A DNA stretch of 12,243 bases from Thermococcaceae archaeon (GTDB lineage Archaea; Methanobacteriota_B; Thermococci; Thermococcales; Thermococcaceae). Position numbers and translations under genes: made by a program. How positions within the stretch are numbered: position 1 is the first letter of the stretch; every line of letters begins with the position of its first letter. The notes beneath the pieces were generated by a model that saw nothing but the letters and a program-made list of their open reading frames with translations, ran no database searches and had not been told where the DNA came from. The stretch is from assembly GCA_027064745.1 (NCBI GenBank), contig JAMOPD010000206.1:1-12243 (forward strand), given 5' to 3'. This document shows, piece after piece, positions 1,886-12,243 of the stretch.

Positions 1886-1907
1886 GATAGGAGTGTGATG
1901 AGCTGTG

Positions 1908-4900
1908 ATGGGTTTAGCCGAAATTGAGAGAAAGGCGTTTGATTTAATGGCTACTTCTATTAGGAAATATAAACTCCTGAATGTGTGGAAATCAGAAGGA
2001 AAAACCATAAAGCTACCATTTCGGAGAGAAGCTGAGCCAAATACATTGGTAGTCTTTTCAAGGGAGGTTGAAGTTCCTAACGATGGCCTTAAATGGTTTT
2101 TGAAAGTTTCTATGGAAGGGAATGCTTTAGTAAAACTTGACGGGAAAGCTTATGGCACAATAGATGACATCCACACTTACATTCCAATCCGTCCCGGAAA
2201 GCATAAACTTGAGCTCATAGTATCTCCTCTAACAATGTTTGGATACCACAAATGGCGTATTAAAATCGATTATGCAATGCTTGTTGGGATTATGTGGGAA
2301 CCCTATGTTCTGGCTCAAAGACTGCTTGACATAGTGAGCTTCATTGAAGTAGTACAAGAGGATGACTTGAAAGAAGCTTTAATGAAGGGACTATCAGACA
2401 TCCTCATCAGGGTTAAGAGCGTTCCAAGTATTAAGCAAATTACTCTTCTGAGAATGCTTCTCTACGATGGAGGTTTAGGAATTAAAGAGCTTAAAATTGG
2501 ACGCTTTGATGTAAGAGAGATCAGACCTGATTATATGTTCCTCTCTGCAGTGTATGGCGTTGGAATTATGAAAGGGAAAGTTGAAGACATTGCCCAGCCG
2601 AAGAGAGAACATTACCTAAAAGAAATCGACAGGACTCTTGAGGAACTTGAAGATGCACTAACCAGACTGAGAAGGGCATTCCCAAAAATTGGCAAAGCTT
2701 ATGCTTTCGCACATTCTCACATAGATGCCGCTTGGTTATGGAGGTATGCCGAAACAAAACAGAAGATTCTGAGAACTTTTTCGACAATTGAGAGGCTCAT
2801 GAGGAGGTATGGAGTAACATACATCCAAAGCTCAGCTCAGTATTATGAATGGCTTGAAGAGCTTGACAAAGAACTTTTTGAGAAAGTTAAAAAGTATATC
2901 AGAGAAGGAAAATGGATATTGGCCGGAGGAATGTGGGTTGAAAGTGATGTTCAGCTTATAGATGGTGAATCCCTCGTGAGGCAGTTCTTGTACGGCCAAA
3001 GATACTTCCTTGAAAAATTCGGGAGAATAGCGAAGATGGGATGGCTCCCTGATACATTCGGTTTCTCTGCTTCTCTGCCGCAAATAATGAAGAAGAGCGG
3101 GATTGAAGTCTTTGCTACATATAAGCTCCTATGGAATGAAAGGAACGAGTTTCCCTATCATGCATTCATATGGAAGGGAATTGATGGAACAGAGATTCCC
3201 GTTCATCTCATGATGAGCTATAAATCTTCAATGACTGCCAAAAGCCTCTACAAGCAGTGGAAGCGCTATAAGAACAAATATGAAGTTCCCTTCTTGCTCT
3301 ATGCTTACGGATATGGTGACGGTGGTGGAGGAATCACATGGGAAATGGTTGAGATGATGAAGCACATGAACAAAGTACCTCACATTCCAAAGATAGTCAA
3401 AGGGTACGAGGACGAGTATATAGCAGAGCTTAAATCGTGCATTGATAAGACGCCTACATGGGAAGGCGAACTTTACGTTGAGGTGCACAGAGGAACTTAT
3501 ACAACGAACCTCAAGATGAAGAAGTATATGGCTGATGCTGAATCAGTTTTGAGGAGTGCTGAAATCTGGAGCACAATAGCTGAGATGCTTGGGCTAAGTA
3601 GGTATCCAAAAGAGAAGCTTGAAAAACTCTGGAAGAGGGTTCTGCTGCATCAGTTCCATGATGTTTTACCTGGTTCTTCAATAAAGGAAGTTTATGATGA
3701 GGCTATTGAGGACTTAAAGAAAGTAATCAGAGAAGCAGAGGAAATAATTCACAGTGTATTGGAGAGAATTGCTGAGAATGCCCTAGTCTTCAATGACCTG
3801 CCTTGGGAGAGGAGAGAGGTAGTTGAGGTTAATGGAGAATATTACCTCCTTGAGGCTCCACCTCTGGGCTGGAAAGCCTTTGAGCCTATTGAGGTCAAAG
3901 AAGGCATTAAAGTCAAGGCTAAAGGAGATAAAATAGTACTTGAGAATGAGTATCTAAGGGCAGTTATAAATAAGGATGGAGAGTTGATTTCCCTTTATGA
4001 CAAAGAGAATAAGAGAGAGGCATTAAGAAGCACCAGCAACATCTTGATGGCCCATATAGATACGCCGGGCATGTGGGATGCCTGGGATATAAATGAGGAC
4101 TTTCTGATTCAGGGTGAAAAGCTCAAAACACTTGGAGAAGCTAGGGTGGTTTACCAGAGTCCATTAATTGCGGTCATCAAAGTGGTTAAAGGCTATGGCA
4201 GTTCAAGGGTGACCCAGTTCATAAAGCTCCGCAAGGAATCAAAATTATTGGAATTTGAGACTGAAGTCGACTGGAAGGACAAGGAAATTCTGCTTAAGGC
4301 ATGGTTCAACTTCAATACACACAACTGGAGTTCCTTTTATGATATTCCTTATGGTGTAATAGAAAGACCGGCAGTGAGGAACACTCCTTGGGAGCAGGCC
4401 AAATTTGAGGTTCCAGCTTTGAGGTGGGCAGATGTCTGCGATGGTGATTATGGAGTTGCTATAATTTGTACGTCAAGGCATGGCTACACAAATTGGGACT
4501 CAAAGATTGGACTCAGTCTGCTCAAGTCGCCAATTTATCCAAATCCATGGAGCGACTTAGGAGAAGGTGAATTTTCATATTACATCTATCCCCACAAGGG
4601 AGATTGGTTTGAGGGAGAAGTTTACAAGAGAGCACGGGAAGTTTGGTCAAGGCTTAGGGTTGTCAAGGCCAGAAGAGTTGAAGGAAAAGCTGACGGCGAG
4701 GAGAGAATCTACGTTGAGACCGAAAAAGCTGAAAAGAAAGCTGAAGAGTTTAAATTTGGGGGAGAACTCTCCAAAAAAGTCCCAGAAGTTTGGATTACCG
4801 AGAGGGAAAAAGCTGAAAGGAAAGTTAAGGATTTCAGTTTTATGAGGACAGATGCAGTAGTTGGAGCATTAAAGAAGGCAGAAGATGGGAATGGGTACAT

Positions 4901-5054
4901 ATTAAGGCTGTACAATCCATCAAAAGAAGAGCTTGAGGTTGAACTGCCAAGGGAAGGCATTGAGATGGATATGATTGAACTCAAGGAACTTGGAAAGGTT
5001 GGTAGAGAAGTCAAGCTAAAGCCCTTTGAGATTAAAACAATTAGGATTTCTTAG
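1908..5054 (+). CDS. GH38 alpha-mannosidase
   Basis: A zinc-dependent retaining alpha-mannosidase of glycoside hydrolase family 38, 1048 residues, similar in length and layout to other GH38 enzymes. It hydrolyses alpha-linked mannose from oligosaccharides, probably in the cytoplasm since there is no signal peptide. Zinc ligands and catalytic residues visible: H271 and D273 in [12 protein letters not shown]; the nucleophile D382 in [17 protein letters not shown]584-D585 in [11 protein letters not shown]. The order is an N-terminal beta domain, catalytic (beta/alpha) domain (about 265-500), three-helix bundle (about 540-625) and a long C-terminal beta region. ATG 1908 is preferred over the adjacent GTG 1905 because GTGATG (1895-1900) then sits seven bases upstream. 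The start lies 22 bp after the guide RNA, so they may share a transcript. The 3' end overlaps the opposing Nob1 gene by 14 bp. Confidence 0.93.
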
Positions 5055-5526
5055 TCTTTCTTTTCCGCTTTCTTGGGAGCAACCTAACAGGGCTCCCACA
5101 ATCAGGGCAGATGCCTCCTGGCGGCTCACGCTCAAATTTTTTGTTGCACCCGATGCACACGTATCTCCAGCGGATTACCTTCCTTATGCCCCTTTTAAGC
5201 GTTTTAAACTTTATCCCAAGAGTTTTGGCAATATTCTGGAGATTGTAATCATCAGTAAAAAGGACAGCTTTTAGCTCATAGGCGAGTGCAAGAACTTCAA
5301 TATCTGCCTCGCTCAGCTCATCTAATTCTCCTGTTCTTTTTGCAGCTTCCTTAACGATTCCAATGCTTTCCTCTGAAGGCATCAAAACTTTTACTTTGCC
5401 AGCACTGATTAAGCTCTCCAGAAAGAGCTTCGACTCAGGGCCTTTAACTTCTTCAATCACCTTAGGGGTTGTGTATCCTTCAACATCAATCCCCTGAATG
5501 AATATTGCAGCATCTATCACGAACAT
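5041..5526 (-). CDS. nob1: rRNA maturation endonuclease Nob1
   Basis: A 161-residue PIN-domain endonuclease with a zinc ribbon, matching archaeal Nob1, which makes the final 3' cut on pre-16S rRNA in late small-subunit assembly. PIN acidic residues are visible: D5 (VIDAAIF), E25/E26 (VIEEVK), D75 (LSEADIE) and D92/D93 (FTDDYN). The zinc ribbon uses C124-x2-C127 and C140-x2-C143. A very basic tail ([11 protein letters not shown]) suits rRNA binding. Length equals known archaeal Nob1. No ribosome-binding site precedes ATG 5526 and a TATA-like element lies about 25 bp upstream, so the mRNA may be leaderless. The 3' end overlaps the alpha-mannosidase stop codon tail-to-tail. It is not a VapC toxin: there is no antitoxin gene beside it and the zinc ribbon is diagnostic. 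Confidence 0.94.
5055..5064 (+). terminator. T-rich terminator of alpha-mannosidase gene
   Basis: TCTTTCTTTT begins directly after the mannosidase stop codon. Archaeal RNA polymerase terminates on such T tracts without needing a hairpin. The tract is the antisense of the Lys/Arg tail codons of nob1, so one stretch may serve both purposes. Confidence 0.4.
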
Positions 5527-5592: not shown

Positions 5593-6348
5593 TTAGATAT
5601 CAAAATCGATCTTTCTGAATTTATCCCGCGGGGTCATGTAAGCGGCTTTGCTGTGGCTTAGACCTGATAAAACAAGTGTAACTGCCGTATATATTGCAGC
5701 CCTAAGCGGCTCTATTATTGGTACATTCACTCCAATCTCATTAAAGTGCTCCTTTATGGCATCTACCAGTGGTGACATTCCAGTACAGCCTAGGACTATT
5801 GAATATGCTCCATCTTCAAGAACTGCTTTTTCTGCAGCTTCAACAGCTTTTTTCACCGTCAGCTCTGGGTTATTTTCCAACTCCAGGACAGGCACATGAA
5901 TCGTTCGTATGGATGCTAAGTTCTGCATCAATCCATATTTCATTATCAATGACCTAATCAGATATTCTGTCTCAGGGAGTATGTTTATAATCGAGAATCT
6001 GCCTGCGAGTTGTGAGGCCATATGGATTGCGGCTTGATTTGCTCCAATTACAGGTATCTCCACTATTTCCCTAGCAGCATCAAGACCGGGGTCACCAAAG
6101 CAGTCCAAGACAACGGCATCATAACCATTCCTTTCGGCCCACCTGACTTTCTTGAGGATGTATGGAACATTCAGAGCCTCGTCATAACTACCTTCAATGG
6201 AAGCTGTCCCTTTGTCTATGGAGAGGACATCAAGTTTTATCAGCCCCCCAGTTTCTTCGTCAAGCAATTTTCCAAGTTTTCTCCTGTCTTCAACAGCCTC
6301 TGCTATGCCTTCAGTTTCGATAACTGGAATCAAATCGAGTATCCTCAT
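5593..6348 (-). CDS. Asp/Glu/hydantoin racemase family protein
   Basis: A 251-residue cofactor-independent racemase of the Asp/Glu/hydantoin racemase superfamily, closest in style to hydantoin racemases (HyuE type). Two catalytic cysteines act as opposing acid/base pair: C83 in LDCFGDPG and C188 in LGCTGMSPL, both in family positions. It would interconvert the D and L forms of a 5-substituted hydantoin or a related carbonyl-activated carbon; the exact substrate cannot be read from sequence. It is cytoplasmic, with no signal peptide. Translation is coupled to the permease gene by an ATGA overlap (6345-6348), with GGTGA six bases upstream of the ATG. It is the last gene of the DUF917-HyuA-NCS1 operon, so its substrate is probably what the permease imports or what HyuA/DUF917 act on. 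Confidence 0.85.
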   Translation of the reverse strand: MRILDLIPVIETEGIAEAVEDRRKLGKLLDEETGGLIKLDVLSIDKGTASIEGSYDEALNVPYILKKVRWAERNGYDAVVLDCFGDPGLDAAREIVEIPVIGANQAAIHMASQLAGRFSIINILPETEYLIRSLIMKYGLMQNLASIRTIHVPVLELENNPELTVKKAVEAAEKAVLEDGAYSIVLGCTGMSPLVDAIKEHFNEIGVNVPIIEPLRAAIYTAVTLVLSGLSHSKAAYMTPRDKFRKIDFDI

Positions 6349-7607
6349 GTCCTTTCACCTATCACCCTGTAGAGGATATAATAAATCACCATCGCCGTGA
6401 TTATGCCGTTTATTGGTGCAATTCCCCATGGTATCTTTATTGCAGCTAAAGAACCCAGAATCCATGCTCCAATTCCTGCCCAGTTTATACCTGGATATTC
6501 CTTCCAGTTCTCTGCCTTTGCTCTTCTCATTATCCAGTAGTCTGCTATGAGAACGCCCGCAACTGGGGGTATTGTCGCTGTTAGTATTGTAAGCCATTTA
6601 ATAAAATAGTTCAATATGCCTGCAACTGCCAAAATCGTCCCAAGGAGACCAGCAACAGCTGTTGCCAGTGCTCTCTTTTCTCCGGAAAGGTTAAACATGT
6701 TTGTGATTGCTAAGCCTCCTGAATATGCGTTTATTGTGTTTGTGGTCCACGTTGCAAGGATTAGGATTATCAGGGCTATAGCAGACAGCCCCAGCTTTGA
6801 TAGAACCTGGGTTATGTCGTATGTACCCGCTACGACAGACATCACGGCTCCCATTGAGAGCATCAATATTCCGGCAGGCCATACTCCAAAGACTGAGGAA
6901 AGAACTGCATCCTTTCTGCTTCTAGCATATCTTGAATAGTCAGCTGCAATTGTGGCTCCAACGGCAAATGTTCCTACCGTTAATGCAATTCCCTGCAACA
7001 GGGAGAAGGGGTTGGGAGGCTGATACTTTGACAAGTTCTCAAGTCCGAATTTAGTGAGCGATACATATGTTCCGTAGAGCGCCAAGACTAAAAGGGATGG
7101 AACAGCGACGTAGTTAAGGTATTCAAGAGCTTTATATCCGACAATGGCGGTGGTAAGCATTATTATTCCCCACACAAGAGATGAGATGCCCACTGAGACA
7201 TTTGCTCCCAACCAACTCTTAAGGATGCTTGAAAATGCTGCACCTGCAATATTCGCCTGGACTCCAAACCAGCCTATTAGAGACACCGCGATTATCAGTG
7301 AGATAACTATTCTCGCTCCAGTGACTCCAAACGACGCTCTCGCTAAAACTGCCGTAGGTCTGCCCAGATCAGCACCCTGCATTCCAATGAAAACCATATA
7401 CGCCACAACGATTGTATATCCGATTATGCCTGCAAGTATTGCATTTCCCAAAGGTAATCCTGTAACAAGAGCACCACCTATCATCAAAGCTGGGATACAT
7501 ATCATCACTCCAGTCCATATCAGTGCAATGCTGTACCAAGGGCTTCTCTCTTCTTTAGGTATCTCATCCAAAGCATGTTTTTCAACAAATCCTTCATCTG
7601 TTCCCAT
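6345..7607 (-). CDS. NCS1 family nucleobase/hydantoin permease (CodB-like)
   Basis: A 420-residue membrane protein with about 12 hydrophobic segments, of the nucleobase:cation symporter-1 family. It resembles cytosine permease CodB in length and motifs: SPWYSIALIWTGVMICIPA in the first helix, GWFGVQANIAG (111-122) in the third, ATIAADYSRYARS (218-230) and TWTTNTINAYSGGLA (286-300). NCS1 proteins import purines, pyrimidines, allantoin or hydantoins with Na+ or H+; here the hydantoin-type neighbours favour a cyclic ureide or related ring, which is inference. The ATG has a strong GGAGGT site (7614-7619) six bases upstream, so it is translated independently of HyuA, 35 bp away. Its stop overlaps the racemase start. 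The short hydrophilic N-terminus (about 22 residues) is cytoplasmic by family analogy. Confidence 0.9.
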   Translation of the reverse strand: MGTDEGFVEKHALDEIPKEERSPWYSIALIWTGVMICIPALMIGGALVTGLPLGNAILAGIIGYTIVVAYMVFIGMQGADLGRPTAVLARASFGVTGARIVISLIIAVSLIGWFGVQANIAGAAFSSILKSWLGANVSVGISSLVWGIIMLTTAIVGYKALEYLNYVAVPSLLVLALYGTYVSLTKFGLENLSKYQPPNPFSLLQGIALTVGTFAVGATIAADYSRYARSRKDAVLSSVFGVWPAGILMLSMGAVMSVVAGTYDITQVLSKLGLSAIALIILILATWTTNTINAYSGGLAITNMFNLSGEKRALATAVAGLLGTILAVAGILNYFIKWLTILTATIPPVAGVLIADYWIMRRAKAENWKEYPGINWAGIGAWILGSLAAIKIPWGIAPINGIITAMVIYYILYRVIGERT

Positions 7608-7630
7608 AATATAACCTCCAAAAATTTATC

Positions 7631-7642
7631 AAAAAATAAAAA
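7631..7642 (-). terminator. T tract between hyuA-like and permease genes
   Basis: On the minus strand TTTTTATTTTTT follows the HyuA-like stop codon immediately. Archaeal RNA polymerase often pauses or terminates on such tracts. Because the permease gene lies on the same strand 35 bp further on, this may be a partial terminator that lowers its expression relative to the two enzyme genes, or it may have no effect. Confidence 0.4.
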
Positions 7643-9199
7643 TCATGCCTTAAGATAACCTGCCGCCTTTACCCTTATTCTCGTTGCATTGCCCGGTAGA
7701 TAAGCGAGAGGAATTTCCTCAAAATTGACGATTTCGACTGTCTCTGGGTCGGCGCCTGCTTTAATGGCTTCTTCAATGGCTTTTTTCTTTGCATCTTCAA
7801 TGGCCTTCTCTCTTCCCAACTGTTCAAGAGAATAAACCCTGTCGACTTCTCCACTAACCTGAGCTATCGCCGCACCTATCGCATTTGCAACATCGAAGTT
7901 CTGCGGTCTGATAACCTTTGAAGCACCTTTTATTTTGTTCGAGAGCAAAATACTCCCTCCTCCAACCAGAATAACGGGAGTTGGCTCTGGGCTTGTTTTT
8001 ATCCTGTCAATGGCATCCTCAACTATAGCATCAATCTTGGCGATGGCCTTCTCAACGAGGGATTTATCAAGATGCTGGACTCTGCTGACATCTCCAAGCT
8101 TATACCTTCCAGCAGCGACTGCAATATCAGTTGCCGTCAGCGTATTCCCGCCGAAAACAAGGGCTTCCTCAACTATTCTGTAACCAACGCTCTCCGGACC
8201 TACCCTCGCTCCATCTCCTACAATCCGGACTATGCTGCCTCCTCCGAGGCCTATGGAGATTAAATCGGGCATTCTGAAGTTTGTTCTTACCCCTCCAATT
8301 TCTACTGCAACCGCTGATTCCCTGGGGAATCCATTGACTAAAATCCCAATATCCGATGTTGTCCCGCCAACATCAACTACAATAGCGTTCTTTTCGTTGG
8401 AGAGAAAAGCTGCCCCCCTTAAACTGTTAGTTGGGCCGGATGCAATTGTTAAAACGGGATATTTCACTGCATAATCCGCGGACATCAGTGTTCCATCGTT
8501 CTGGGTTATGTAGAGCTTTGCATACACTCCCTTCTCTTCCAGAGCGTTTTCAAATCCGCGAACTGCGTTTTTCATAACCTTTGTAACTGCTGCATTCAGT
8601 ATCGCCGCATTTTCTCTTTCCAGCAATCCAATACTGCCAATTTCGTGGGAAAGTGTTATTGCCACAGAATCCCCAAGAGCTTCCCTGAGTATCTCGGCAG
8701 CTTTCTCTTCATGTTCAGAATTAACCGGAGAGAACACTGAGGAGATGGCAATTGCTTCTATGTTTGTGTCCTTGAGTTCATCCGCAATTTTCTTCAGCTC
8801 TCCTTCATCAAGGGGAGCAATTTCTCTTCCATCGTATTCATGACCTCCCTGAACAATGTAGACATGCTTCCCGAGTTTTTCCCTCAAGTCCTCTGGCCAT
8901 CCTGTTAGCGGGGTAATTGCCAAAGTTGCAGGCTTTCCTATTCTGATGATGGCAATCTCTGCGAGATTCTTTCTCTCAACTATGGCGTTGGTAGCGTGAG
9001 TTGTTCCGAGCATTGCGTATTTAATCTCCCCGGGGTCAACTCCACTTTCATTCAGAACCTTTTCTAAGGAGTTCAGAATACCCGTCATTACATCGGGAGT
9101 TGTTGGGGATTTTGCCTTTGCCAGGACGTTGTTTTTCTCATCCAGAATGACTGCGTCGGTGTTTGTTCCTCCAACATCTATACCCAGTCTGAGCGTCAT
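7643..9199 (-). CDS. Short HyuA-like hydantoinase/oxoprolinase A family protein
   Basis: A 518-residue protein of the hydantoinase/oxoprolinase A family, an ASKHA (actin-like) ATPase fold. Motifs: phosphate 1 loop DVGGTNTD (8-15), ITQNDGT (231-237), phosphate 2 VVDVGGTTSDIG (274-285), and adenosine-site LVGGGSILL (411-419). Known relatives (HyuA, 5-oxoprolinase, acetone carboxylase beta subunit) phosphorylate an amide or carbonyl oxygen with ATP before ring opening or carboxylation. Full HyuA proteins are near 700 residues; this one lacks the C-terminal domain, as do relatives paired with DUF917. No HyuB subunit gene is present. ATG 9199 overlaps the DUF917 stop (ATGA), with GGAGG seven bases upstream, so the two products are probably made in equal amounts and form a complex. 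The substrate is unknown. Confidence 0.9.
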   Translation of the reverse strand: MTLRLGIDVGGTNTDAVILDEKNNVLAKAKSPTTPDVMTGILNSLEKVLNESGVDPGEIKYAMLGTTHATNAIVERKNLAEIAIIRIGKPATLAITPLTGWPEDLREKLGKHVYIVQGGHEYDGREIAPLDEGELKKIADELKDTNIEAIAISSVFSPVNSEHEEKAAEILREALGDSVAITLSHEIGSIGLLERENAAILNAAVTKVMKNAVRGFENALEEKGVYAKLYITQNDGTLMSADYAVKYPVLTIASGPTNSLRGAAFLSNEKNAIVVDVGGTTSDIGILVNGFPRESAVAVEIGGVRTNFRMPDLISIGLGGGSIVRIVGDGARVGPESVGYRIVEEALVFGGNTLTATDIAVAAGRYKLGDVSRVQHLDKSLVEKAIAKIDAIVEDAIDRIKTSPEPTPVILVGGGSILLSNKIKGASKVIRPQNFDVANAIGAAIAQVSGEVDRVYSLEQLGREKAIEDAKKKAIEEAIKAGADPETVEIVNFEEIPLAYLPGNATRIRVKAAGYLKA

Positions 9200-10293
9200 T
9201 TACCTCCCTCCATGCGCTTTTCAATTGGGATGTAGTCAATATCATAGCCGAAGTACCGCGGTCCAGCAACTTCTAGTCCCTTAGCTGTTCTCCACTTTTC
9301 ACTGCAGGGTATTCCAATCACGACTCCCCTGTACCCATACCTAAGGCTCTCCGTGGTAATCGGCTTGCCTGTTGTCATGTCGAGAACAGTTATCAGGTCT
9401 GGAACGCTCGCCACTATTCTGCCATCCAATATCGCGACGAGGTTTTCATTCTGGAACTGTATTTTCAATGTGTGCCCCTTGTACTCATCCAAACCCTCAA
9501 AAACGGCTTCTCCTCTGGCAAATCCTCCAGTGGTTCTCCTTGAAACGTCAATTATCTTCCCCTTGAATATTCTGAATCCTCCAGAAACCTCTAAAATAGC
9601 ATCAATTGGGTCTTCTTTTGATTCCTTGCTTTCTCTTATAGCTTCCCCAAGCTTCTGGGCCAATGTTAATGTTCCGGGAATAGCCGCCTCTTTCAGTTGT
9701 TTTCCTGTCATTGCATACAGTGCAATCCACGCCGTCCCTCCGAATTTTATGGTAATAGTTCTCGCTAGCCATTCAGCCCAGTAATTATTAGCCGCTCTAA
9801 GAAGGACTGCGTTATCTCTCTCATCCGCCAATGCCATAGGAGTTGCAGGCACACCATATAGATGAAACGTCGTCATCTGAAGCTCAGGGAATGCTCTACC
9901 CATTCCATCGGCATCTACAACCGGAATGCCTGTCCTAGCACCTACAGCTAAGGGAATTGTGGAGTTAAGACCCCCGGCCTCTATAGGAAGGGTGGCATAA
10001 ACCTCACGCCCAAGATAATCACTAAGAACTTTAAATGCATTCATGACCTCTGTCCCTCGCGGAATCTTCTCAACTATGACAGTAGGTGCTCCCATGCCTG
10101 CGGATGGTATTACAAGTGCATCATCAGGAATCTCTTTGGGATCGAGGAGAGTTATTTCATAACCTTCCTTCAATGCAGAAAGAGCCATCAGCTTTCCTAT
10201 ATACGGATCTCCACCTCCTCCTGTCCCAAGGACAGTTGCACCCAAAGCAAGATCTTCAATTGCCTGTTCATCTAAGGTTTTAATTTCTACCAC
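9196..10293 (-). CDS. DUF917 family protein (S-methyl-thiohydantoin desulfurase-like)
   Basis: A protein of about 365 residues of the DUF917 family, recognised by LGTGGGGDPYIGK near the N-terminus, PIEAGGLNS, and DADGMGRAFPELQM in the middle. As I recall, the family has lately been named S-methyl thiohydantoin desulfurase; whether this archaeal member has that activity is unknown. DUF917 proteins commonly sit beside, or are fused to, HyuA-like proteins, as here (4-bp overlap). The start is uncertain. GTG 10293 is the nearest ordinary start codon, but GGAGGTG at 10291-10297 overlaps it and is instead correctly placed for an ATT at 10284, giving (M)KTLDEQAIEDLALGA, the usual family N-terminus. 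TTG 10323 extends the frame but lies about at the predicted transcription start. First gene of the operon, under control of the divergent AsnC-type regulator by position. Confidence 0.88.
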   Translation of the reverse strand: MVEIKTLDEQAIEDLALGATVLGTGGGGDPYIGKLMALSALKEGYEITLLDPKEIPDDALVIPSAGMGAPTVIVEKIPRGTEVMNAFKVLSDYLGREVYATLPIEAGGLNSTIPLAVGARTGIPVVDADGMGRAFPELQMTTFHLYGVPATPMALADERDNAVLLRAANNYWAEWLARTITIKFGGTAWIALYAMTGKQLKEAAIPGTLTLAQKLGEAIRESKESKEDPIDAILEVSGGFRIFKGKIIDVSRRTTGGFARGEAVFEGLDEYKGHTLKIQFQNENLVAILDGRIVASVPDLITVLDMTTGKPITTESLRYGYRGVVIGIPCSEKWRTAKGLEVAGPRYFGYDIDYIPIEKRMEGGK

Positions 10294-10297
10294 CTCC
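10291..10297 (-). promoter_or_regulatory. Ribosome-binding site that points to an ATT start
   Basis: On the minus strand GGAGGTG is a perfect match to the archaeal anti-Shine-Dalgarno sequence. Six bases downstream is ATT (10284-10282), in the DUF917 frame. No ATG, GTG or TTG stands at a suitable distance, so the site supports initiation at ATT. Confidence 0.6.
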
Positions 10298-10334
10298 TCG
10301 TTGAAAGTTATCGAATATAACAAATAACGAATTT

Positions 10335-10407
10335 AGTTCAATATTTTTATAAATTTTGTTCAAAAATCGTCATTATTCCTGTACATTAATATTTAAATGT
10401 TCAAAAA
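10335..10407. promoter_or_regulatory. Helically spaced TGTTCA repeats, candidate operator
   Basis: TGTTCAAAAA occurs twice, exactly, at 10357-10366 and 10398-10407, with a shorter copy AGTTCAATAT at 10335-10344. Starts are 22 and 41 bp apart, about two and four helical turns, so all three lie on nearly the same face of the DNA. They surround the TATA box of the operon. Such arrays suit AsnC/Lrp octamers that wrap DNA. The likely ligand is the regulator encoded by the divergent gene. Confidence 0.5.
10346..10353 (-). promoter_or_regulatory. TATA box of the DUF917-HyuA-NCS1 operon
   Basis: TTTATAAA, preceded on the minus strand by an A-rich stretch suitable as BRE (AACAAAA). With the usual spacing of about 25 bp, transcription would start near 10325, leaving a leader of about 40 bases that contains the ribosome-binding site. 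TTCA-type repeats flank the box on both sides, so a bound regulator could block or assist TBP/TFB. Confidence 0.65.
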
Positions 10408-10432
10408 ATATGTTGATTCTCTAAATACGTTG

Positions 10433-10446
10433 ACGATTTAAGTCGT
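10433..10446. promoter_or_regulatory. 14-bp near-palindrome, candidate Lrp-type operator
   Basis: ACGATTTAAGTCGT is self-complementary at 12 of 14 positions, similar in size and A/T-rich centre to archaeal Lrp family sites. It lies about 35-50 bp upstream of the regulator gene's TATA box. Its left arm extends into TGACGATTT (10431-10439), the exact reverse complement of AAATCGTCA at 10364-10372 near the operon promoter, so the two promoters share a half-site. Confidence 0.45.
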
Positions 10447-10480
10447 GCATTACAGAGTCTTTATGTGGATTGGTGCAAGA

Positions 10481-10488
10481 TTTTTAAA
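10481..10488 (+). promoter_or_regulatory. TATA box of the AsnC/Lrp-type regulator gene
   Basis: TTTTTAAA preceded by GCAAGA, a fair BRE. Transcription would start near 10508-10511, downstream of the ATG at 10503 but just before the GGAGATGA at 10509-10516 and the ATG at 10521. This spacing is one reason to prefer the later start codon. Confidence 0.6.
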
Positions 10489-10520
10489 GGAAAACTCAAA
10501 TAATGTTTGGAGATGACACT

Positions 10521-11042
10521 ATGACTGCAGGATTTAAACATAACATGGATATAGAAGAACTGAATTTTTGGAAAAGTGTCTTTAGAGGAATTTTGAGCGA
10601 TATTGACATCAGAATATATTTTTTGCTAAGGGAAAATGGAAGGATGACTGATACAGAAATAGCTAAGAGGCTTGGGGTTTCAGCGACAACAATTAGGCGG
10701 AGGAGGCTTGCCTTACAAGAAAAGGGTTATCTTCAGATTCTGGGTATTCTAATCCTCCAAGAACTTCACATGGCATATATGGATGTTCTGGTTAAATTTA
10801 ACCAAAATGCATCAAACGATGAAATTGAGAAATTCATCAGCGATGCTAAGAGGAACTACAGAATATTTGAGATTGCAGAGTATGCAGGTAAATACGATGC
10901 ACTCCTGAGATTTTTTGAGAGGGACATGCACACCCTAACAAGAAGCATACATGAATTCATGTCAAGACATCCATGTGTTGCTGAATATGAAATCCTGCCT
11001 GTGACGAGAAGTCCAAAGGCTTTCGCCAAAAAATTAAAGTAA
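10521..11042 (+). CDS. AsnC/Lrp family transcriptional regulator
   Basis: A 173-residue regulator of the AsnC/Lrp family. A winged helix-turn-helix covers about residues 28-72 (DTEIAKRLGVSATTIRRRRLALQEKGYLQ), with Arg-rich recognition helix; a C-terminal RAM-like alpha/beta ligand and oligomerisation domain covers about 80-165 (MDVLVKFNQN, EYAGKYDALLRFFER). ATG 10521 is chosen because GGAGATGA (10509-10516) precedes it and the predicted transcript begins after ATG 10503; the longer form would add six residues. The N-terminal ~25 residues before the HTH are unusual for short Lrp proteins. It is divergent from the DUF917 operon and convergent with the isomerase gene, three bases away. By position it probably senses the imported compound or its product and controls both its own gene and the flanking operon. 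Confidence 0.87.
   Translation: MTAGFKHNMDIEELNFWKSVFRGILSDIDIRIYFLLRENGRMTDTEIAKRLGVSATTIRRRRLALQEKGYLQILGILILQELHMAYMDVLVKFNQNASNDEIEKFISDAKRNYRIFEIAEYAGKYDALLRFFERDMHTLTRSIHEFMSRHPCVAEYEILPVTRSPKAFAKKLK
11028..11033 (-). terminator. T tract ending the isomerase transcript
   Basis: On the minus strand TTTTTT lies about 13 bases past the isomerase stop codon, inside the last codons of the convergent regulator gene. It is a short archaeal-type terminator. Confidence 0.4.
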
Positions 11043-11045
11043 CAG

Positions 11046-11762
11046 CTATAGGCGTTCCTTCATCAAAGCTCCATATTCTTTGTATTTTTCTTTTATCCCC
11101 AGATTTCTAAGAGCGAACCACATTGAAGCCTGATTGCTCGTGATGACTGGAACTCCCAGATCCATCTCCAGCAAGTCTATGACCTCAATGGTTCTAAAGT
11201 TTGTGCAACTTATAAAAATCCCATCGGCATTTGGTGTATAAATTCTCTTAGCAAGGTTATAGGCAGTTTGTGGTTCTTGTTTTCCAATTTCGATATTCTT
11301 TATCAATCCCAAGCCCTCCATTCTGACGATCTCTATGCCATTCTCCTCTAAAAACTGCTTCTCTTTTGCGTTCACATCATCAATATACGGCGTTGCAACA
11401 GCAAGTTTGGAAATTTCAAGCTCTTTTAAAGCTTCTAATACTGCGGTGGAGGTTGTTACTGTCTTAATCCCGGAGTGTCTCTCAAGTTCCTGAGATATCT
11501 GTCTGTCATAACCTTTGCCTTTAAGCAGACTACCACTTGTGCAGCCGTACATTATGATATCCACCGCGGCATCGGCTAATCTCATTGCAGCAGCCTTTGC
11601 ATAGCTCTCCATCTTTATCAGAGCTTCCTCAGTAACATCGGTTAGATTCATTCTTGCTGTGTGCACCGAAACCCCTTTTGGAGCCATTTTCCAGAACTCT
11701 GACTCCATAGTCGTATTGGAAGAAGGAACTATCAACCCTATCCTCGATCTCCAGCCGTACAT
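11046..11762 (-). CDS. Maleate isomerase / arylmalonate decarboxylase-like enzyme
   Basis: A 238-residue member of the Asp/Glu racemase superfamily, nearest to maleate cis-trans isomerase and arylmalonate decarboxylase. Visible: the N-terminal IGLIVPSSNTTMESEF with Asn16, a carboxylate-binding position in this group; C74 in YGCTSGSLL and C186 in ISCTNFRT. Both cysteines are present, as in maleate isomerases and racemases; arylmalonate decarboxylase keeps only the second. It would act on a small dicarboxylate or an alpha-substituted carboxylate in the cytoplasm. A strong GGAGGTG (11768-11774) lies five bases before the ATG. It follows the Nramp-like gene by 24 bp on the same strand and is probably co-transcribed. 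A second racemase-superfamily gene lies 5 kb away in the other operon, so the two may act in one pathway. Confidence 0.85.
   Translation of the reverse strand: MYGWRSRIGLIVPSSNTTMESEFWKMAPKGVSVHTARMNLTDVTEEALIKMESYAKAAAMRLADAAVDIIMYGCTSGSLLKGKGYDRQISQELERHSGIKTVTTSTAVLEALKELEISKLAVATPYIDDVNAKEKQFLEENGIEIVRMEGLGLIKNIEIGKQEPQTAYNLAKRIYTPNADGIFISCTNFRTIEVIDLLEMDLGVPVITSNQASMWFALRNLGIKEKYKEYGALMKERL
11085..11094 (+). terminator. T-rich terminator of the regulator gene
   Basis: TTTTTCTTTT lies about 43 bases after the regulator stop codon, inside the 3' end of the convergent isomerase gene. It fits an archaeal T-tract terminator; together with the tract at 11028-11033 it would limit overlapping antisense transcripts. 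Confidence 0.4.
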
Positions 11763-11786
11763 TAGAACACCTCCTAAAAATTAAAA

Positions 11787-12243
11787 TCACATCAAGCCCA
11801 GAGCCTTTAAAATTAGCCTAATTCCCAAAACTGTTGCCGTAATAACTGCAATGCTGCCGAGGATATTGCTTACTGGACCGTTGGTGTATTCTCCCAAATA
11901 TTCCTTCTTGTTTGCAGCGTACAGGAGCATCCAAGCAACTATCGGTAGGAGAACACCATTTACAGCTTGAGCAAAGATTATTGCCTCTATTGGAGACCTG
12001 CCTGTCGCAAATACCATGGTACCAAAGCCAAGACCTGAGAGCATTATGAGCATAAGCCAAAGCCTGAAGTACTTGTCCTTCATGTCCCTCGGAAGGCCTA
12101 ATGATTGTTGGATTGCATACGCCCCAGCCAGAGGAGCTGTAACTGCGGAGGTCATGCCTGCCGCAAACAGACCAAGAGCAAAAAACACCGCGGCGCCTTT
12201 ACCCAACAAAGGCTCTAGTTGAACCGCCATATCTCCGGCAGAC
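11787..12243 (-). CDS. Nramp family divalent metal transporter-like protein, partial
   Basis: The C-terminal 151 residues of an Nramp-family transporter; the frame stays open to the end of the window (SAGD precedes the Met at 12230), so the start lies beyond 12243. Evidence: EPLLGKGAAVFFALGLFAAGMTSAVTAPLAGAYAIQ is the characteristic Nramp helix with a Gly-x-x-Ser break, followed by three further hydrophobic segments (about 57-78, 83-105 and 122-142 from the first Met). The family co-transports divalent metals with protons, using DPGN in helix 1 and an MPH motif in helix 6; both would be outside the window, so metal specificity cannot be checked. Some Nramp-related proteins lack these motifs. 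The isomerase gene follows after 24 bp, suggesting a shared transcript and possibly a metal or organic substrate needed by the pathway. Confidence 0.82.
   Translation of the reverse strand, partial: SAGDMAVQLEPLLGKGAAVFFALGLFAAGMTSAVTAPLAGAYAIQQSLGLPRDMKDKYFRLWLMLIMLSGLGFGTMVFATGRSPIEAIIFAQAVNGVLLPIVAWMLLYAANKKEYLGEYTNGPVSNILGSIAVITATVLGIRLILKALGLM

Follow-up and report, generated by a model that had tools for sequence, protein, structure and literature searches.

A candidate import and ring-opening cassette of NCS1 permease, racemase, HyuA-like ATPase and DUF917 protein in a Thermococcaceae archaeon

We have analysed a stretch of 12,243 bases from a Thermococcaceae archaeon (GenBank assembly GCA_027064745.1, contig JAMOPD010000206.1), here called the window. 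It is the entire contig C206 of the draft genome that we designate G000 (424 contigs, 85% complete); the nearest named relative found is Thermococcus sp. metagenome-assembled genome (MAG) WAPO01000006, whose DUF917 protein is 96% identical over the best segment. Our subject is a set of four genes encoding a DUF917 protein, a short HyuA-like ATPase, an NCS1 permease and a racemase. We put at about even the chance that these form a self-contained cassette for the import and opening of a peptide-derived ring, with a cyclic dipeptide as the first choice of substrate and 5-oxoproline as the second. The core is a widespread cassette, and the combination of NCS1, DUF917 and HyuA recurs in archaea, in Bacillota and on plasmids of Lactiplantibacillus and Pediococcus.

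In the scheme that we propose, NCS1 would import a small neutral cyclic amide and the racemase would epimerize the alpha carbon of the ring. The HyuA-like protein would phosphorylate the ring amide, in its lactim form, at the expense of ATP, and DUF917 would then add water to the activated carbon to open the ring. It would thereby fill the role of HyuB, but its fold is a different one and lacks a conserved metal site of histidines. The hydrolytic half-reaction is assigned to DUF917 by analogy, since the S-methyl thiohydantoin hydrolysis for which the family is named would attack C(=N)-S and the phospholactim presents C(=N)-O-P. The ring would probably come from peptides as a dead-end product, with a cyclic dipeptide (diketopiperazine) ranked before 5-oxoproline, and the dipeptide or glutamate released would need no dedicated downstream enzymes. 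From the genes observed, their order and conservation, the predicted folds and the context of the locus we infer that HyuA and DUF917 form one enzyme, together with its reaction, substrate and regulation.

An earlier note on this DNA had read the region as an island for the use of hydantoin or thiohydantoin. The genes that it named (DUF917, short HyuA, NCS1, racemase, Lrp, isomerase-like and Nramp-like) are all present between 5593 and 12243 as open frames, and each has a strong Pfam match. Its single operon is also borne out: the four core genes, all on the minus strand, show two 4 bp overlaps and one 35 bp gap, and such tight packing points to an operon-like arrangement. One of the overlaps is that of the HyuA start with the DUF917 stop. 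The annotated DUF917 start at 10323 (TTG) is probably not the true one, which would lie downstream near 10293–10284; homologues begin about 11–14 residues later and the model confidence is below 50 for residues 1–12.

For a cross-species scan with one genome per species we took the best 80 of 101 loci and added the window, making 81. In 67 of these loci, some of which are near-copies, the DUF917 gene is the immediate neighbour of short HyuA on the same strand, with the gene order one way in 47 and the other way in 20; the paired genes mostly overlap or lie no more than 20 bp apart. These counts are probably low, since the DUF917 frame went uncalled in six loci (L074, L092, L096, L100, L117 and L121), in several because of a longer antisense frame. 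An NCS1 gene stands within four genes in 28 of the 75 loci that have a DUF917 frame, and HyuB is present in ten of the 81. In a DUF917 tree calculated in quick mode, with five repeat loci omitted and frames outside 330–420 residues dropped, the window pair falls inside a HyuA-linked branch and the NCS1 label requires 12 changes, compared with 27.6 in shuffles. The conservation of neighbourhood that the earlier note had proposed as a check is found for the cluster core across archaea, Bacillota and plasmids. Import by NCS1 followed by ATP-dependent ring chemistry of the HyuA–DUF917 pair, which that note had put forward, is the likeliest reading, and ring opening by the pair, its mechanistic core, is a plausible one that has gained in strength.

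Natural fusions of HyuA and DUF917 were sought as proof of pairing and none occurs among the labelled frames; the long frame L124_4 is, by eye, an N-terminal over-extension. In archaeal cassettes a protein of 131–155 residues (c20), membrane-like by eye, accompanies the NCS1 permease (L055, L056, L057, L063, L067, L072, L077 and L122), and the one member scanned has no Pfam match. A separate arrangement, which hints at a different heterocycle, is seen in four Binatia MAGs and in a fifth MAG labelled Desulfurellaceae, where HyuA–DUF917 is divergent to molybdopterin dehydrogenase genes (L104, L108, L109, L110 and L111). Four of these five loci also carry HyuB.

Among 295 sampled genomes of Lactobacillales, 31 have a DUF917 match, and wider stretches were read from 21 of the 31 (23 loci, L223–L245). 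NCS1, DUF917 and HyuA lie on one strand in all 23, in surroundings that vary widely. A PucR-like regulator is found within two genes in 21; beyond PucR, no neighbour is common to all of the cassettes read, the neighbours being unannotated. A cassette that travels alone suggests a product usable by general metabolism, and a dipeptide or glutamate would fit this better than a carbamoyl amino acid. Of 72,556 plasmid records, 141 match the DUF917 protein, and seven of the eight that we read have short HyuA beside DUF917 together with NCS1 or an ABC importer. On the Lactiplantibacillus and Pediococcus plasmids (65–74 kb) IS30 elements lie near the cassette. It is carried also by plasmids of Bacillus caldolyticus, Parageobacillus and Planococcus, in the last with NCS1 annotated in two pieces, while a Haloferax plasmid has DUF917–HyuA with an ABC importer and one of Enterococcus raffinosus has two tandem cassettes between D-proline reductase and selenium genes. 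The eighth, from Rhizobium, has the order HyuA–DUF917–DUF917 after another ABC importer. Published papers are cited here from excerpts: in one, the permease, DUF917 and hydantoinase genes of Clostridioides difficile, which bear consecutive numbers, are raised together in a single mutant (PMC12915319), and another lists the cassette genes among differences between strains of L. rhamnosus (PMC7513527).

The model of the HyuA-like protein (predicted local distance difference test, pLDDT, 90.1) matches caprolactamase, N-methylhydantoinase and carboxylases, with template-modelling scores on the query of 0.66–0.78. Residues D8, K30 and D276 are invariant in 23 aligned sequences. In our reading of the motifs they would be the counterparts of D11, K40 and D295 of caprolactamase CapA, the roles of which are taken from PMC8453981; the excerpt proposes that the lactim is activated in CapA and hydrolysed at a metal site, tentatively of zinc, in CapB. 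The ATPase domains and predicted catalytic residues of the HyuA half of a HyuAB cyclic amidase are therefore present. The window protein has 518 residues, some 170–215 fewer than the solved stand-alone HyuA-type subunits (about 690–730).

What would take the place of CapB is the DUF917 protein. The only significant fold match in the PDB for its model (pLDDT 89.6) is 2o3i (E 1.5e-24; runner-up 0.14), a solved DUF917-family relative from Chromobacterium violaceum. An alignment of 26 sequences has 35 invariant columns, none of which is the histidine that an Asp-His-Asp-His metal tetrad would require. E115, N120, D137, D139 and E147 are among the residues that DUF917 conserves. The fold match and the lack of conserved histidine led us to reject DUF917 as a homologue of HyuB.

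The earlier note had also raised a thiohydantoin as the ring, by way of the desulfurase assignment of DUF917. An explanation of this kind would make the protein a thiohydantoin or S-methyl-thiohydantoin desulfurase and the chemistry that of a sulfur-containing ring; it draws on the presence of both Pfam domains, S-Me-THD_N and S-Me-THD_C. The scores against the two desulfurase models, 95 and 87 bits, reach about a fifth of the equivalog cut-offs of 450 and 440, and the desulfurase identity was rejected on this account. In addition, desulfuration as named requires no ATPase partner. We regard sulfur-ring chemistry as highly improbable here.

The earlier note listed HyuB among the classical partners that are absent from the window, and none of the window genes scanned encodes it. 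Elsewhere in its genome G000 has a single HyuB, adjoining its own separate long-type HyuA, and the same is true of G047, a second genome of the family with the cassette. PxpA and HyuB were surveyed in the hosts of 45 of the 80 loci, amounting to 43 genomes (L114 was left out; L102 and L107 share a genome), the loci having been picked largely for the presence of NCS1 or HyuA nearby and so not a random sample. No HyuB was found in 20 of the 43, genomes whose completeness is not given, and a complete short HyuA is seen at 18 of these 20 loci. DUF917 and short HyuA can therefore presumably work without HyuB.

We turn to the substrate. The permease is a member of the NCS1 family, and among solved relatives it scores 170 bits with the cytosine permease 7qoa and 70 bits with the hydantoin permease Mhp1, which is thus not the closest solved protein. 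The racemase is closest to solved hydantoin and allantoin racemases (138 and 92 bits); C83 and C188, which we take to be the two catalytic cysteines, align with cysteines of 3qvj. One explanation would then have NCS1 import hydantoin, allantoin or another ureide, the racemase swap enantiomers, and HyuA and DUF917 open the ring to a carbamoyl product. The racemase scores fit it, as do the NCS1 family and the PucR regulators of bacterial cassettes. So do the Binatia loci, where genes for molybdopterin dehydrogenase and HyuAB lie close to the pair. PMC11055893, comparing sequences and structures, suggests in addition that DUF917 proteins act as hydantoinases and yield N-carbamoyl products. Its difficulties are the nearness of the permease to cytosine permease rather than Mhp1 and the lack of any dedicated downstream enzyme travelling with the Lactobacillales cassettes, where PucR alone recurs beside unannotated neighbours. 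Moreover, neither G000 nor G047 has a hit above cut-off to D-hydantoinase (TIGR02033, best 112 of 393 bits) or to carbamoylase (TIGR01879, best 31 of 204 bits), one model having been searched for each and other types of carbamoylase not searched. We judge a ureide unlikely. The case for a hydantoin-type ring, as the earlier note had it, is weakened, and the substrate has probably to be sought among peptide-derived rings instead.

In support of a cyclic dipeptide we note several neighbours of the pair. The census of neighbours, 51 proteins that were selected by hand from 82 plus further ones, is descriptive and not an enrichment test. A fused cyclodipeptide oxidase (CDO; PF00881 with PF19585, the latter named CDOB in PMC11055893) adjoins DUF917 in L070, L071 and L074, the DUF917 of L074 coming from the genome scan. 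L070 also carries short HyuA, a racemase and a Dpp importer, and Dpp-type dipeptide importers occur near some related operons. An M24 peptidase is joined to HyuA–DUF917 in L118, L119, L120 and L126; those of the two loci scanned are closest to PepQ. L118 and L126 have a proline-racemase-family gene and amine oxidoreductases as well. The D-proline reductase genes that flank the tandem cassettes of Enterococcus raffinosus also speak for a cyclic dipeptide. The three genes downstream in L120 were considered as subunits of hydroxyproline dehydrogenase and rejected, as they look hydrogenase-like/PAS, SpoIIE-like and NuoE-like. Between DUF917 and the M24 peptidase, the same four loci encode a conserved protein of 83–93 residues (c46); the L118 member was scanned and has no Pfam match.

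At the level of genomes, 94 members of the family (Thermococcales) include 13 with CDOB, 19 with DUF917 and 12 with both (Fisher p 1.3e-9, uncorrected for relatedness), and the two cassette genomes, G000 and G047, are among the 12. CDO clusters are described in PMC11055893 as enriched in homologues of hydantoin racemase, in DUF917, which the excerpt calls experimentally uncharacterised, and in AroM; DUF917 appears also in tables of PMC9503626 and PMC12915319. In G000 itself the beginning of a further DUF917 gene, truncated where the contig stops, follows ABC permease and ATPase genes and a racemase (contig C59, 1–3926; L028), and a CDOB gene lies at 826–1077 of contig C416. These two together suggest that G000 probably carries a cluster of the CDO type as well.

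The second choice, 5-oxoproline, comes from the setting of the window cassette. The earlier note had placed the Nramp-like and maleate isomerase-like genes in the same catabolic island; to judge from comparison with relatives, they belong to a neighbouring 5-oxoprolinase (pxpABC) locus, to which this second unit is now reassigned. The NRAMP fragment of the window corresponds to residues 269–419 of a 90% identical full-length relative in genome G021, which lies in one run of NRAMP, isomerase, pxpA, pxpB and pxpC. The missing N-terminus is at the end of contig C5 of G000, as 262 residues with 87% identity to G021 residues 4–265, and is followed there by divergent pxpABC. Since one NRAMP gene is split over the two contigs, these very probably adjoin in the genome; we found no overlap of sequence between C206 and C5. 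A single contig of G047 carries NCS1, HyuA, DUF917, Lrp, a gene for 159 residues, a PutP-like symporter and pxpABC, so that the pxp genes are seen contiguous with the cluster in G047 and would be so in G000 from the split gene. In a further genome, G006 (L170, upstream of 9299), a 28-residue NRAMP remnant of 79% identity stands ahead of the isomerase and pxpABC, as if the transporter had been lost there. The two cysteines of the isomerase are retained in the pxp-linked relatives of G021 and G006, and 5-oxoproline racemase is on that basis a reasonable guess for its activity. As for the transporter, the NRAMP-type PxpT is reported as required for growth of Corynebacterium glutamicum on 5-oxoproline (PMC13274462), and the Bacillus subtilis homologue YcsG is argued to import Mn instead (PMC10448178), both in excerpt.

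PxpA is found in 85 of the 94 genomes of the family, and of the DUF917 sites that we read in them only those of G000 and G047 have HyuA alongside. Besides G047, we read 13 pxp loci from other genomes of the family. A PIN gene is directly beside pxpA in four of them (L172, L177, L179 and L180) and separated from it by other genes in two, L178, which has an Lrp 73% identical to that of the window, and L182; L169 (G021) has only a short PIN-like frame beyond NRAMP, and six have no PIN next to pxpA. The Lrp of the window shares 84% identity with its G047 counterpart and 73% with a copy at pxpABC in G087, a stretch with no DUF917.

This setting, with pxpABC, their NRAMP transporter and a shared type of Lrp, brings in another explanation, that HyuA and DUF917 make a second 5-oxoprolinase acting on the substrate of pxpABC, perhaps on the D form after racemization. 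It overlaps the second choice of our preferred explanation. The cassette is next to pxpABC in both G000 and G047, a related Lrp is at pxp in G087, in Liquorilactobacillus and one close relative the cassette is followed by a pyroglutamyl peptidase gene, and 15 of the 43 hosts show neither PxpA nor HyuB. On the other side, 13 of the 43 already have PxpA, and this explanation gives no account of the neighbouring genes for M24 peptidase, proline racemase and CDO. Furthermore, 5-oxoproline is an anion, an unusual substrate for NCS1. We hold a second 5-oxoprolinase to be somewhat improbable.

Several observations weigh against the peptide-derived ring that we prefer. L070 and L071 are near-identical, leaving two lineages at most with a fused CDO, and the PepQ-like scores, 274 and 243 of 630 bits, are under the NCBIfam cut-off. 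There are no CDO genes among the contig genes beside the window cassette, the CDOB gene on C416 being the sole match in G000, and in the quick tree the CDO-linked DUF917 proteins of Thermococcales fall in other deep branches. The links to pxpABC and to pyroglutamyl peptidase come from one lineage each. At the other loci of the cross-species scan no pxp genes were found, bar L054, which is the same locus as L036, and the PxpA of the 13 hosts would make a second 5-oxoprolinase redundant there. Lastly, a ureide ring would suit the PucR regulators and the enzyme that resembles allantoin racemase, and it would agree with the published suggestion of DUF917 hydantoinases (PMC11055893, in excerpt).

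The features of the window are collected in Table 1. Homologues of the Lrp protein begin six residues after the annotated start at 10503, and the ATG six codons downstream of this longest-frame start is likely to be the true one.

Table 1. Genes and other features of the window, with positions in the 12,243-base contig.
Feature	Position	Strand	Evidence and remarks
Racemase (Asp/Glu/hydantoin racemase)	5593..6348	-	E 5e-40; two cysteines C83, C188; hydantoin/allantoin racemase-like
NCS1 permease	6345..7607	-	PF02133 E 7e-47; closest solved relative cytosine permease 7qoa
Short HyuA-like ATPase, 518 residues	7643..9199	-	Hydant_A_N E 2e-46, Hydantoinase_A E 4e-37; proposed lactim kinase
DUF917 protein	9196..10323	-	S-Me-THD_N E 9e-63, S-Me-THD_C E 4e-77; proposed hydrolytic subunit
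Divergent regulatory region	10324..10502	.	By eye, a TATA-like stretch at about 10345-10358; region mostly conserved in G047
Lrp/AsnC regulator	10503..11042	+	Pfam; likely true start ATG 10521
Amdase/maleate-isomerase-like protein (arylmalonate decarboxylase/maleate isomerase superfamily)	11046..11762	-	E 4e-40; cysteines C74, C186
NRAMP-family transporter, C-terminal 151 residues only	11787..12242	-	E 5e-27; 5' end cut by contig end
PIN-domain gene, left edge of variable slot	5041..5526	-	Pfam/NCBIfam matches and locus comparison
GH38 alpha-mannosidase-family backbone gene	1905..5054	+	Left flank, common to G086 and G087

A broader proposal, which we offer tentatively and at odds clearly short of even, is that HyuA and DUF917 constitute a mobile and widespread hydrolase of cyclic dipeptides that depends on ATP, and with it a new class of two-subunit amidase in which DUF917 replaces HyuB. 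It would supply a route, so far missing, for the recovery of amino acids from diketopiperazines by anaerobes, thermophiles and lactic acid bacteria. If this is right, two unrelated folds, those of HyuB and DUF917, would each have arrived at the second half-reaction of the ATP-dependent cyclic amidases, and a function would be at hand for a gene set on plasmids of food lactobacilli and for the C. difficile trio (PMC12915319, in excerpt). Which enzymes open diketopiperazines was stated as unclear in 2013 (PMC3852281), and the cassette offers a concrete pair for that question; the report of the discovery of caprolactamase remarks that many '5-oxoprolinase' genes might encode lactamases or cyclic dipeptide hydrolases (PMC6061476, both in excerpt). 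Among the open-licence literature this passing mention is all that we found on a diketopiperazine hydrolase; we found there no published activity for the DUF917–HyuA pair, no paper on thiohydantoin desulfurase and none combining cytosine permease, hydantoinase and PucR.

The cassette can be compared with four known systems. With the HyuA/HyuB-type ATP-dependent cyclic amidases (N-methylhydantoinase, CapAB and the 5-oxoprolinase OplAB) it shares the conserved residues and fold of HyuA and, as proposed, the lactim phosphate chemistry; it differs in the shorter HyuA and in a partner that is DUF917, with no conserved histidine, instead of HyuB. The S-methyl thiohydantoin desulfurase family (S-Me-THD, formerly DUF917) has both Pfam domains and the relative 2o3i in common with the window protein, which however scores far under the equivalog cut-offs and is encoded by a gene overlapping that of an ATPase. 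The CDO clusters likewise contain hydantoin-racemase homologues and DUF917, whereas the window cassette has no adjoining CDO and the CDO-linked DUF917 proteins of Thermococcales lie in other branches. Finally, the NRAMP and isomerase genes of the window appear to belong to a PxpABC locus with an NRAMP-type transporter of the PxpT/YcsG kind, but HyuA and DUF917 are not Pxp components.

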